From Streptomyces griseoviridis (GTDB lineage: Bacteria > Actinomycetota > Actinomycetes > Streptomycetales > Streptomycetaceae): a stretch of DNA of 64,000 nucleotides. The stretch is from contig NZ_CP029078.1 of assembly GCF_005222485.1 (NCBI RefSeq), forward strand, positions 3,717,501 through 3,781,500, written 5' to 3'. Positions 19,136 to 23,411 of the stretch are shown here, in pieces. Both the position numbers and the translations under genes were made by a program. The notes beneath the pieces were generated by a model, which saw nothing but the letters and a program-made list of their open reading frames with translations, did no database searches and was not told the origin of the DNA. Position 1 is the stretch's first letter. Each line of letters begins with the position of its first letter.

Positions 19136-19399
19136 CTAGACGGCGGCCTTCTTGAGGCGGCGCCGCTCGCGCTCGGAGAGGCCGCCCCAGATGCCGAAGC
19201 GCTCGTCGTTGGCGAGGGCGTACTCAAGGCATTCGGAGCGGACCTCGCAGGCGAGGCAGACCTTCTTGGCCTCGCGGGTGGAGCCGCCCTTCTCGGGGAA
19301 GAAGGACTCGGGGTCGGTCTGGGCGCACAGTGCGCGCTCCTGCCAGCCGAGTTCCTCGTCCGCGTCGTCGACCAGCAGTTGCTGCACCAGCTCGGTCAT
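19136..19399 (-). CDS. whiB: WhiB developmental transcription regulator
   Basis: An 87-residue iron-sulfur protein needed, in S. coelicolor, for septation of aerial hyphae. Cluster-binding cysteines are C25, C48, C51 and C57 (CLACEVRSEC), followed by the GIWGG beta-turn at 69-73 and the basic ERERRRLKKAA tail that contacts DNA or sigma factor. The length and sequence match the founding WhiB protein as I remember it rather than the other Wbl paralogues. GAGGGG precedes the ATG. It works with the regulator WhiA and the vegetative sigma factor in other Streptomyces; WhiA is not in this window. Confidence 0.95.
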   Translation of the reverse strand: MTELVQQLLVDDADEELGWQERALCAQTDPESFFPEKGGSTREAKKVCLACEVRSECLEYALANDERFGIWGGLSERERRRLKKAAV

Positions 19400-19471
19400 G
19401 TGCGCCCCTCGTCCGTCTTTCGCGTCCCCGTGATGTGGCCGTTACCGTTCCGGCTGAACGACACGAGTGAA

Positions 19472-19501
19472 ATTACAAGTGTGCTGCTCCGGGCGAGTCA
19501 A
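19472..19501 (-). promoter_or_regulatory. Putative whiB promoter
   Basis: On the minus strand TTGACT (19496-19501) and TGTAAT (19472-19477) are 18 bases apart, about 70 bases before the whiB start codon, in an AT-richer pocket. This is a good vegetative-type match. whiB in S. coelicolor has two promoters; only this one is evident here. Confidence 0.55.
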
Positions 19502-19804
19502 GCCGAGATCTGCTATTGGGCCCCTTATTCACTCTGCGGAACCAAGGCCGTGCGGTAAGTGTTCAAATCGGCATAAACCTTGACACGCAGACGAGGCCCC
19601 CCGGAACCTCCGTTTCCGCGCCCGGCCCACCGGGCTCGGTACGGAGGAGGACGTGCAGGGGTTCGATCGCGTTCCCGCGCGCCCCTCGGATGAGGTGTGC
19701 GCGCCCGGTCCTGCGCCATGTGTCCCGGCAACCCGGTGAACAAACCTTTCATCTTTCAGAAGAACCGGAAGAGGTGAACCATGTCCCGCATTTCGGACGT
19801 CGAG
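19502..19804. other. Gene-free part of the whiB-cdo divergent region
   Basis: No convincing coding frame on either strand. The minus-strand frame at 19525-19752 has neither coding codon bias nor a ribosome site. The segment just before 19805 leads into the promoter of the leader peptide. Confidence 0.4.
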
Positions 19805-19835
19805 TTGACAGTGAAGGTGTGAACCGCTGTCCTAG
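19805..19835 (+). promoter_or_regulatory. Putative promoter of the Cys-rich leader peptide and cysteine dioxygenase
   Basis: A perfect TTGACA (19805-19810) is followed by GTCCTA/TCCTAG around 19829-19835. The distance to the ATG at 19841 is what a leaderless transcript starting at that ATG would need. The -35 is strong, the -10 weak. Confidence 0.5.
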
Positions 19836-19840
19836 TGGGC

Positions 19841-19936
19841 ATGCTCGCGAACTTGGCACTCACCTCGACCCGCCCCGCCGGGTCCCACGGTGCTGCCCGC
19901 GCTCGCTGTAGCTGTTGTTGCCGTTCCAGCTGTTGA
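19841..19936 (+). CDS. Cysteine-rich leader peptide (uORF) upstream of cysteine dioxygenase
   Basis: A 31-codon open frame beginning MLANLAL and ending ARCSCCCRSSC, with five Cys codons in the last nine sense codons. No ribosome site precedes its ATG, but a TTGACA promoter box lies 30 bases upstream, so translation from a leaderless mRNA is likely. It ends 154 bases before the cysteine dioxygenase start. Leaderless polycysteine uORFs that sense cysteine are known upstream of cysteine genes in mycobacteria, which makes an attenuation role plausible here. It is too short for codon statistics and the call rests on composition and position. Confidence 0.6.
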   Translation: MLANLALTSTRPAGSHGAARARCSCCCRSSC

Positions 19937-20014
19937 GCCACCCGCGCTCCGGCTGCCCCTGAGTCCATCCCGACTCGGCTGCTGCTCTCCCGCCCCACCC
20001 AGGGCCCGCCTCTC

Positions 20015-20033
20015 CCGCCCGCGACCCGGGCGG
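20015..20033 (+). promoter_or_regulatory. Hairpin between leader peptide and cysteine dioxygenase
   Basis: CCGCCCG pairs with CGGGCGG around a five-base loop. It lies between the end of the Cys-rich uORF and the dioxygenase ribosome site and could be one arm of an attenuator. Confidence 0.4.
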
Positions 20034-20090
20034 ACGGTATGTGACACCCAGCCAGCCCCACTTCTCCCGCCGAGGACCCTCCCCACCCCC

Positions 20091-20609
20091 ATGAACAGCG
20101 ACAACGACCTCCAGATCGCCGGCGACATCCTCGAAGTGCCCCACCTCCTCAAGCCCCCGCGCGAGCACCCGGTGACCGTCGCCGAGTTCGTCGGACTGGC
20201 CCGCTCGCTGGCCGCCGACCGCTCCCGGTGGGCGCACCTGGTGCGCTACGACGCGAGCGCCCGCTGGTACCACCGGCTGCGCACCGGGCCCGGCTACGAG
20301 GTGTGGCTGCTGTCCTGGGTGCCGGGCCAGGGCAGCGGCCACCACGACCACGGCCGCTCCTCCGGGGTGCTGACCGTCCTGGAGGGCACCCTCACCGAGC
20401 GCGCCGGGCGCACCACGCGCGTGCTGGGGGCGGGCGCCCAGCGGGTCTTCGCGCCCGGATATGTGCACGAGGTGGTCAACGCCACGCTGGAGCCCGCCGT
20501 CAGCCTGCACATCTACCACCCCGGTCTCACCGAGATGCCGATGCACACCGCGCCGCACTGCGAGGCCAGGACCGAGCCGCGCCCCGGGGCGGGTGCGGTG
20601 ACTGCCTGA
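20091..20609 (+). CDS. Cysteine dioxygenase
   Basis: A 172-residue cupin that oxidises cysteine to cysteine sulfinate with non-haem iron. The metal motif is [19 protein letters not shown] near residue 82, with a third His in [22 protein letters not shown] near 124-140. The length is typical of bacterial type enzymes. The ATG at 20091 has only a distant GAGGA, a weak initiation site that fits control by the upstream leader. It is followed after 33 bases by fbiA but has no metabolic link to it. Known role: cysteine catabolism and removal of excess cysteine. Confidence 0.85.
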
Positions 20610-20642
20610 CGCGTTGTCGTACCCGCCTGCGAGACTTCTCCC

Positions 20643-21602
20643 ATGCGCATTGTGGTTCTGGCAGGCGGCATCGGCGGTGCCCGGTTCCTGCGCGGTCTGA
20701 AGCGGGCCGCGCCGGAGGCGGACATCACCGTCATCGGCAACACCGGGGACGACATCCACCTCTTCGGTCTGAAGGTCTGTCCCGACCTCGACACGGTGAT
20801 GTACACCCTCGGCGGCGGCATCAACGAGGAGCAGGGCTGGGGGCGGGCCGAGGAGACCTTCCATCTCAAGGAGGAGCTGGCCGCGTACGGCGCCGGGCCG
20901 AGCTGGTTCGGGCTCGGCGACCGGGACTTCGCCACGCACATCGTGCGGACCCAGATGATCGCCGCGGGCTTTCCGCTCAGCGCGGTCACCGAGGCGCTGT
21001 GCGACCGCTGGCAGCCGGGCGTGAAGCTCATCCCGATGACCGACGACCGCGTGGAGACGCACGTGGCCGTCGAGATCGACGGCGAGCGCAAGGCCGTCCA
21101 CTTCCAGGAGTACTGGGTGCGGCTGCGGGCCTCCGTGCCCGCCGAGGCCGTGGTGCCGGTCGGCGCCGAGCAGTCCAAGCCCGCGCCCGGCGTCCTCGAG
21201 GCCATCGCGGCGGCGGACGTCGTGCTGTTCCCGCCGTCCAACCCGGTCGTCTCGGTCGGCACGATCCTCGCCGTGCCGGGGGTGCGCGAGGCCATCGCCG
21301 AGGCGGGGGTCCCGGTGGTCGGCCTCTCCCCCATCGTCGGGGACGCGCCCGTGCGCGGGATGGCCGACAAGGTGCTCGCGGCGGTCGGCGTGGAGTCGAC
21401 GGCCGCGGCGGTCGCCGAGCACTACGGCTCGGGGCTGCTCGACGGCTGGCTCGTCGACACCGTGGACGCGGGCGTGGTGGAGCGGGTCGAGACGGCCGGC
21501 ATCCGCTGCCGCGCCGTCCCTCTGATGATGACCGACCTGGACGCGACGGCGGAGATGGCCCGCGCGGCCCTGGCGCTGGCGGAGGAGGTGCGGGCGGCGT
21601 GA
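20643..21602 (+). CDS. fbiA: 2-phospho-L-lactate (phosphoenolpyruvate-type) transferase of F420 synthesis
   Basis: CofD/FbiA family, 319 residues. It joins the activated lactyl or enolpyruvyl phosphate group to the deazaflavin Fo, giving (dehydro-)F420-0. The N-terminal [14 protein letters not shown] loop, [26 protein letters not shown] near residue 36, [13 protein letters not shown] near 88 and [14 protein letters not shown] near 195 are the family signatures. It overlaps fbiB by GTGA, so the two steps are translationally coupled. Cytosolic. Confidence 0.95.
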
Positions 21603-22960: not shown

Positions 22961-23064
22961 ACGGCGGCACGGCCCGGCGCGAGGTGTCCGGTGAGGACCG
23001 GGCGCCGGGCGCCGAGTGGCACGCGGTGTCCGGGGCGGGCCGGGTTTTCGGGGCGGACCCGGCT

Positions 23065-23118
23065 CCCGGAGCAAACCGGGTTCCCGGAGCAAACCCGGTT
23101 CCCGGAGCGGAGCAAGCT
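23065..23118. repeat. Three 18-bp tandem units
   Basis: Units starting CCCGGAGCAAACC repeat at 23065, 23083 and 23101 with a spacing of exactly 18 bases; a partial CCCGG follows at 23119. This is the first of three adjacent tandem arrays downstream of fbiB. Confidence 0.85.
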
Positions 23119-23126
23119 CCCGGTCG

Positions 23127-23228
23127 GGGAGAGTTCCATGTCCGGGAGAGTTCCACGTCCGGGAGAGTTCCACGTCCGGGAGAGTTCCACGTCCGGGAGA
23201 GTTCCACGTCCGGGAGAGTTCCACGTCC
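23127..23228. repeat. Six 17-bp tandem units
   Basis: GGGAGAGTTCCACGTCC is repeated six times head to tail; only the first copy differs (T for C at one base). Units abut with no spacer, and 17 is not a multiple of three, so the array would read in all three frames and is not a designed coding repeat. Confidence 0.95.
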
Positions 23229-23239
23229 GGGGCGGTTCC

Positions 23240-23324
23240 GGATCGAGGACCGCTCAGGATCGAAGGCCGCTCCGGATCGAAGCGTGCTCGGGATCGAAGG
23301 CCGCTCCGGATCGAAGCGTGCTCA
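23240..23324. repeat. Five 17-bp units of a second type, alternating
   Basis: Units beginning GGATCGA follow each other at 17-base spacing. After the first copy the variants GGATCGAAGGCCGCTCC and GGATCGAAGCGTGCTC alternate A-B-A-B, pointing to a 34-base higher-order duplication. Same period as the array before it, but unrelated sequence. Confidence 0.9.
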
Positions 23325-23411
23325 GGGCTGCTGGCCGCCGCACATCGCGGGGCGTTTAAGCTCGTAGGGGCGGTTTTCGGCTACCGGTTTTCGGCTACCT
23401 CAGGACTTTCG

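Follow-up and report, generated by a model that had tools for sequence, protein, structure and literature searches.

In the Streptomycetaceae, the cysteine dioxygenase gene cdo is preceded by a short, probably leaderless open reading frame (the leader ORF, or uORF) that ends in a run of Cys codons, and in Streptomyces the opening codons of cdo itself are complementary to this run. As judged by comparison among loci, the leader is a real, widely kept element, conserved beyond chance, and both sides of the pairing, denoted helix S, are under nucleotide-level constraint and covary. We consider it fairly probable that the leader acts by translational attenuation of the mycobacterial polycysteine type, with slow reading of the Cys codons raising the production of cysteine dioxygenase (CDO). 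The window, that is, the whole stretch of 64,000 nucleotides that was analysed, comes from a genome of 8.96 Mb, and the named relatives carrying matching cdo loci are Streptomyces. The following features of the window are discussed below.

19136-19399, minus strand: whiB-like gene (PF02467), divergent from cdo
19763..19780, plus strand: conserved box AACCGGAAGAGGTGAACC (AACCGGATGAGGTGAAAC-like), 5' of the -35 hexamer, conserved in 110 loci
19805..19810, plus strand: -35 hexamer TTGACA, 36 nt before the uORF ATG
19828..19833, plus strand: proposed -10 element TGTCCT, non-consensus, with a 17-nt spacer and 7 nt to the ATG, conserved in the 110-locus profile
19841..19936, plus strand: leader ORF MLANLALTSTRPAGSHGAARARCSCCCRSSC followed by the stop, 31 codons, proposed to be leaderless from the ORF and its conservation
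19867..19884, plus strand: hairpin H0, GACCCG/CGGGTC, within the leader ORF, some 22 nt 5' of the Cys run, a proposed pause hairpin
19907..19933, plus strand: Cys codon run TGT AGC TGT TGT TGC CGT TCC AGC TGT
19914..19926, plus strand: 5' arm of helix S, GTTGTTGCCGTTC, paired with 20093-20105 in the MFE fold
19927..19955, plus strand: hairpin P1 across the uORF stop, CAGCTG..GAGC / GCTC..CGGCTG, from folding
19959..19978, plus strand: hairpin P2, CTGAGTC-CATCCC-GACTCGG, with no T run after it, from folding
20072..20076, plus strand: weak Shine-Dalgarno sequence GAGGA of cdo
20091..20609, plus strand: cdo, cysteine dioxygenase gene of the CDO_I family, from a Pfam match and structure alignment
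20093..20105, plus strand: 3' arm of helix S, GAACAGCGACAAC, from the G of the cdo start codon through codon 5
from 20643: cofD-like gene (PF01933), after cdo

The cdo product matches PF05995 (CDO_I; E 3.6e-19, Pfam) and aligns with solved cysteine dioxygenases (E down to 1.9e-12); it contains HDH, VHE, YHR and LHIY motifs, the roles of which we take to be consistent with an active enzyme of the cysteine dioxygenase type. The original prediction had described a 31-codon ATG frame with the tail CSCCCRSSC, a TTGACA box at a distance typical of leaderless starts, and a spacer containing a hairpin and a weak ribosome site ahead of a cysteine catabolism gene, and this geometry is borne out in full. 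The frame runs from the ATG at 19841 to the TGA at 19934-19936, with five Cys among the final nine sense codons; the first T of the box lies exactly 36 nt 5' of the A of the uORF; the stop is separated by 154 nt from the ATG (20091) of the CDO_I gene; hairpin P2 is located in this spacer; and GAGGA lies 14 nt from the cdo ATG.

The proposed -10 element has no A at position 2, which is occupied by A in 94.5% of the leaderless promoters of the S. lividans survey (PMC8079986), and a standard sigma-70 scan, which requires this A, found no promoter. The uORF is nonetheless probably leaderless, given its geometry and conservation. On both strands of the window, only one small ATG ORF combines a TTGAC box at that distance with at least four Cys in the last 12 residues, and none was found in 20 second-order Markov windows; two more Cys-rich small ORFs of the window both lack a TTGAC box. 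There is no second copy of the leader DNA elsewhere in the genome, the next-best match covering 29 bases (E 0.005). Another small ORF (ATG 19781, MSRISDVELTVKV), although it has a good ribosome site, does not qualify as a conserved leader, since the A of its ATG, at -60, is present in only 72 of 110 loci. The box at 19763-19780, at about -78 to -61 from the uORF ATG, is strongly conserved across the 110 loci and may be an activator site or belong to the divergent whiB control region, serving whiB, cdo or both. It was discarded as a regulon site: the genome contains a single exact copy and six further sites with two mismatches, compared with three for the backward control pattern. Tandem repeats of 17-18 bases occur further along the window, at 23057-23326 (for example, a 17-base unit in 6.4 copies at 23123-23231).

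Comparison of the uORF across Streptomyces cdo loci had been named beforehand as a check of the prediction. The first sample included 110 cdo loci, from 80 of 497 contigs and 30 of 290 further genomes, some of them mutual duplicates; addition of 47 (L113-L159) and 48 loci (L168-L215) brought the total to 205. At least four Cys within 10 codons were found upstream of cdo in 109 of the 110 loci, L017 being the miss, and in all 110 once the threshold was lowered to three. With the leader defined by length, tail and box (20-75 codons, at least two Cys in the last 16, and a TTGAC box 22-46 nt upstream), a leader behind the box is present in 191 of the 205 loci and in 191 of the 195 near relatives (Streptomycetaceae), that is, all loci except ten distant CDO relatives with 39-50% identity (L150-L159). 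The 14 misses are these ten; L143, a Streptomyces locus without a leader; L186, from a genome with a second copy outside the sample; L196, in which a Cys-rich frame falls below the definition; and L198, at a contig edge.

The distance from TTGAC to the ATG is 35-37 nt in 185 of the 191 leaders (36 nt in 144, 37 in 38, 35 in 3) and 30 nt in the other six, which start with MGMLA and therefore have a second ATG at 36 nt. Leader heads are strongly divergent, ranging from MLANLALTSTRTAGSHGAARARC to MSEFATHRSRQAVLRRAASSLC, and vary in length as well as sequence, but the ATG, the frame, the Cys tail and the stop are kept family-wide, with the tail changing in length by whole codons. At least four Cys are present in the last 16 residues of 184 of the 191 leaders, and Cys is the last sense codon in 161. 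Despite the divergence of the heads, the residues just 5' of the Cys run recur in similar form (AARARC, AVQARC, AASALC). In seven loci (L053, L099, L104, L106, L110, L112 and L115), the leader frame is open 5' through the -35 region, so that a longer leader is formally possible there.

In Streptomyces, the opening codons of cdo, AAC AGC GAC AGC/AAC, are complementary to the Cys codon run, with GCUGUUGCUGUUC pairing with GAACAGCGACAGC. In the MFE fold of the window, helix S is formed with 12 of 13 pairs and one C-A mismatch. Among 157 loci with an ATGAACA start, 10 or more of the 13 pairs can form in 135, a generous count because the best register was picked for each locus; of the 9-pair core, at least eight pairs are formed in 152 of 156 loci (all nine in 102, eight in 50, and six or seven in 4). 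In single-sequence MFE folds of 156 Streptomyces loci (138 unique sequences), the Cys end of the leader forms at least six pairs with cdo +1..+15 in 140 cases, namely, 51 of 52 loci with short, 27 of 28 with middle and 62 of 76 with long spacers; 14 of the 16 folds without helix S belong to the long-spacer class. By the same measure, the cdo start pairs with the leader head in none of the 156 folds and with the spacer instead in six. RNAalifold consensus folds of class-A leaders differ by spacer class. Helix S is present in the consensus for short spacers (36 unique sequences) and for middle ones (20); for long spacers (42 sequences), the class of the window, it is absent and the cdo start is paired with the leader head.

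In 35 loci, cdo does not start with ATGAAC, and in several of these from Streptomyces (for example, L122, L130, L142, L144 and L146), the Cys tail still finds its best partner in or close to the start. As a family-wide feature, pairing at the cdo start did not hold up: helix S is clear there in Streptomyces only, and in the other sampled genera the tail mostly pairs elsewhere. In five of eight loci of one such genus, g150 (L201, L204, L205, L206 and L212), the Cys run is complementary to a GGAACAGAGG-like element 21-33 nt past the leader stop, a local solution unlike the start-codon pairing.

Several comparisons indicate that the pairing itself is under constraint. In the 156 loci, the duplex between leader tail and cdo start has a mean energy of -22.1 kcal/mol, compared with -14.7 for synonymous recodings that keep the same peptide, with codon usage taken from four window genes only; 2.2% of the recodings are equally strong. 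Of 18 target offsets compared, the strongest duplex comes at the cdo ATG or 6 nt beyond it. Leader Cys codons are TGT in 798 of 993 cases, compared with 1 of 158 in the cdo genes of 156 loci, but slow decoding may be selected too because the preference reaches Cys codons outside helix S. On the other side, the Ser codons at cdo positions 3 and 5 are AGC/AGT in 244 of 244 cases, compared with 434 of 1311 Ser codons after codon 12. Pairing with the start codons would explain this odd invariance of the first cdo codons.

The two sides also change together. With the register fixed on the core excluding codon 5, the choice of AGC or AAC at cdo codon 5 tracks that of GCT or GTT in the leader (odds ratio 8.2, p 4.6e-6, for the 96 of 102 full-core loci that enter the 2x2 table; odds ratio 6.1, p 2.7e-4, for unique sequences), these p-values being optimistic because the sequences are related and include near-duplicate loci. 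The middle base of codon 5 is unpaired in 17 of the 102 full-core loci (11 C-A, 5 C-U and 1 G-G). Leader tails form 11.25 of 12 pairs with their own cdo starts and 11.17 with permuted partners (sd 0.02, 0 of 2000 permutations), and 69 of 130 helices are fully paired, as against 61.8 after permutation (15 of 2000 permutations). In L079, the helix is changed on both sides; in L143, the leader is absent and the cdo start is altered; and a change of leader Cys to Arg (TGC to CGC) occurs where it preserves the RNA pairing.

The effect of a ribosome on this structure was modelled by constrained, static folding of 154 loci, from the leader to cdo +45, with the ribosome footprint forced to be unpaired. 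The unpaired probability of cdo +1..+12 is 0.23 in the naked RNA and 0.22 with the ribosome at the leader start; it rises to 0.46 with the ribosome at the first Cys among the last 16 leader residues, to 0.61 and 0.59 at the second and third Cys, and to 0.48 at the last Cys and 0.49 at the stop. For these five tail positions, the rise over the naked RNA exceeds 0.05 in 127, 148, 146, 143 and 141 loci, respectively. The unpaired probability of the Shine-Dalgarno region remains at 0.43-0.45 whatever the ribosome position, so that the switch would act on the start codons and not on the ribosome site. The folds thus predict a structure that hides the cdo initiation region and can be opened by a ribosome on the Cys run.

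Under the translational attenuation that we favor, the transcript would begin at or next to the ATG at 19841, and ribosomes would load straight onto the leader ORF. An empty Cys run would hide the cdo start, its pairing partner, in a helix S predicted to form around P1 and P2; a ribosome dwelling on the Cys codons would occupy one strand of helix S and expose the start. Such dwelling would be prolonged by a shortage of charged Cys-tRNA, so that cdo would be translated more when cysteine is short or oxidised, alongside the cysteine biosynthesis genes. One could speculate that CDO then serves as an overflow valve or as a source of sulfite while the whole cysteine network is up. The proposed sign, which is likely, is the same as that of biosynthetic attenuators and metabolically odd for cysteine breakdown; it is deduced from static folds in which a ribosome at the stop codon opens the start as well.

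The S. coelicolor gene SCO3035, a neighbor of whiB (SCO3034), is presumably the orthologue of the window cdo, and its expression bears on the sign. In RNA-seq of S. coelicolor after 2 h in 0.15 mM H2O2, SCO3035 is raised 6.5-fold and SCO5772 8-fold, and both are listed together with cysNDCHI, cysM, cysA and met genes (PMC4991794); SCO5772 is annotated as a putative cysteine dioxygenase (PMC3087709). The authors of the RNA-seq study ascribe the H2O2 response to HbpS-SenS-SenR, in the mutant of which it is deregulated (PMC4991794). These data fit a starvation-type sign but do not prove it.

The original prediction had assigned the opposite logic, namely, that fast reading of the Cys codons under cysteine plenty favors dioxygenase expression. 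Its first part, a Cys-read, probably leaderless leader before cdo, stands and is conserved (191 of 195 near relatives); the fast-reading logic finds no support in the pairing of the Cys run with the cdo start codons or in the opening of the start, in the folds, by a ribosome on the run. We regard such a mechanism, in which the ribosome would reach the stop, break P1 and helix S and exclude Rho or structure, as rather unlikely, although it suits the metabolic role of CDO. The stop-codon ribosome does open the cdo start in the model, so that good translation alone might give expression, and by eye the spacers look C-rich and G-poor, like Rho sites. However, a ribosome held at the second or third Cys opens the start more; half of the divergent Streptomyces leaders (7 of 14) have a helix arm that begins 2 nt ahead of the first Cys codon of the tail, which means that a ribosome stalled at this codon already covers the arm; and SCO3035 rises alongside biosynthesis genes (PMC4991794). 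In Streptomyces SCUT-3, cdo1 is up 50-fold and cdo2 8-fold on feather medium (PMC7181669), which, feather being rich in cystine, could equally support induction by excess, with the proviso that cdo1 and cdo2 are not matched to the window cdo.

An arrest peptide resembling TnaC, in which the polycysteine chain would sense free cysteine, sulfide or thiol redox, stall near the stop and free the cdo start, appears unlikely. Induction by cysteine excess or oxidative stress, and not by starvation, would be a sensible sign for a catabolic gene, and TnaC provides a catabolic precedent (PMC8429421); the position of Cys as the last sense codon in most leaders and the H2O2 response of SCO3035 (PMC4991794) are also compatible with arrest. 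The strong divergence of the heads within the family argues against it, and the replacement of Cys by Arg where pairing is kept better fits sensing through codons and RNA. If arrest nevertheless applied, the same anatomy would serve starvation sensing at biosynthetic genes and excess sensing at a catabolic gene, and the cdo leader would be to cysteine what TnaC is to tryptophan, the stalled ribosome opening helix S and so releasing the cdo start.

Classical attenuation, in which P2 would be an intrinsic transcription terminator, is quite improbable. A spacer hairpin does recur: the best stem scores 17.1 compared with 11.8 for shuffled sequences, a stem of at least five pairs is present in 131 of 138 unique spacers, and P2 variants carry two-sided changes (GGCCGAG/CTCGGCT, CTGAGTC/GACTCGG, ACCGAGTCC/GGACTCGGT). 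A T-rich tail follows the stem in 5 of these 131 spacers but is missing in 126, by which the terminator was rejected as a general feature, and searches for intrinsic terminators in the window and in L055 found none. Rfam covariance models produced no matches to 19400-20700 up to E 1. Hairpin H0 has the form GACCCG/CGGGTC in 77 of 150 unique heads, with variants changed on both sides (ACCCAC/GTGGGT, GACCCA/TGGGTC, GGACTCGC/GCGAGTTC); its role as a pause site is a guess because the best stem score of 16.8 only modestly exceeds the 14.2 obtained with mononucleotide shuffles from every second locus. A chance Cys-rich frame within a conserved whiB/cdo promoter or DNA-binding region is hardly credible: DNA conservation does extend 5' of the uORF ATG, yet the ATG, frame, Cys tail and stop are kept while the heads vary, and the tail varies by whole codons.

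The genome contains three CDO matches, two of which have a Cys leader at the 36-nt spacing. The features of the other two CDO-like genes are as follows.

G000:C1:6423868-6423924, minus strand: leader of the second CDO-like gene, NF042934 match with 35.5 bits (cut-off 27)
G000:C1:489754-490122, plus strand: third CDO-like gene, 166 residues, close behind another ORF

The second CDO-like gene (6423020-6423265) follows a leader with a GTG start, (M)TDTCVRLWRRVHMDLVRYAGCVCRPSC, and a TTGAC box 36 nt upstream; the start of the gene itself is uncertain because a candidate start lies 23 nt past the leader stop and opens a frame of 355 residues. Its leader is one of ten NF042934 matches above the cut-off in the genome. 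The 700 nt upstream of the third gene contain neither TTGAC nor a Cys-tailed small ORF, which makes this gene a natural contrast for leader control. In one Streptomyces genome with two CDO-like genes (L143 and L150), cdo lacks the leader and has a changed start (AAC AAC), and the second gene follows a leader that belongs to the known HVDF..ASALC type. By eye, sequences resembling the known leader HVDLRRQASALC are present upstream in five distant relatives (L150, L152, L153, L155 and L156); that of L150, the only one of the five scanned, scores 24.3 bits against NF042934, just under the cut-off of 27.

Leader peptides ending in Cys are known in Actinobacteria as the NCBIfam families NF042934 (cis_reg_atten, 'putative leader peptide') and NF042936 (Ms4527A), which resemble the window leader in this respect. 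The window leader itself matches neither model; among 12 further cdo-leader variants, 11 have no match to NF042934 and one, L214, scores 14.5 bits, below the cut-off. Some leaders from other genera of the family (L209, L214 and L200) resemble the RRxASALC motif of NF042934. A protein search with a longer relative produced one 40-residue match in a database of 5.8 billion sequences. In searches that covered open-licence papers but few subscription ones, no description of a leader ORF ahead of cdo in Streptomyces was found, which is not proof of absence. In the S. lividans survey, eight leader peptides are tabulated, none of them assigned to cysteine (PMC8079986). The 'methionine' leader metL of that survey, located before metNIQ (MSTTSDRTPATEATTTPGARCMCRRMCAF), has three Cys codons near its end (PMC8079986), and metNIQ is up together with cys genes under H2O2 (PMC4991794); the metL peptide may be a cysteine leader.

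TnaC, the leader peptide of tryptophanase, senses free Trp via its conserved nascent chain and Rho. Like the cdo leader, it precedes an amino-acid catabolic gene (PMC8429421), but a strictly conserved chain is not seen in the cdo leaders. The uORFC-8-2 motif before cysS of Rhodobacterales likewise places a Cys-codon uORF in a stem, but differs in having two Cys codons with UGC dominant, an intrinsic terminator and cysteinyl-tRNA synthetase as the target (PMC8632094). Leaders with Cys runs before cys and cbs genes were predicted in 2005 in Mycobacterium, Propionibacterium and Bifidobacterium (Seliverstov, PMC1262725); as here, the Cys codons lie beside the stop and no terminator was found, but the targets are biosynthetic, and, as far as that account goes, none was reported for Streptomyces cdo. 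Leaderless polycysteine small ORFs are found in mycobacteria at the cysA2/Msmeg_5788 and nirA/Msmeg_4527 loci (Shell 2015, PMC4633059; Canestrari 2020, as cited in PMC13236596).

The cdo leader shares with these mycobacterial ORFs a C-terminal Cys run, a cysteine-metabolism gene behind it and, probably, a leaderless-type start, and the run of Cys codons directly before the stop of a short ORF that marks the mycobacterial type is found in 184 of 191 leaders. In the mycobacterial attenuators, reportedly analysed by Canestrari in 2020, a stalled ribosome is said to open a structure hiding the downstream ribosome site. The cdo leader differs in that its target is cysteine breakdown and in that the Cys run finds its pairing partner in codons 2-5 of the target gene. 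The catabolic target, the pairing with the start codons and the unexpected sign thus appear to be new among polycysteine leaders. Cysteine control read by the ribosome would be extended from making to destroying cysteine across an antibiotic-producing family, with Cys leaders before two of this genome's three CDO-like genes. The predicted sign contradicts simple metabolic logic, so that either breakdown is co-induced with synthesis or the leader senses something besides starvation. Base pairing between the sensing codons and the beginning of the target gene would bring the target's own coding sequence into the switch.
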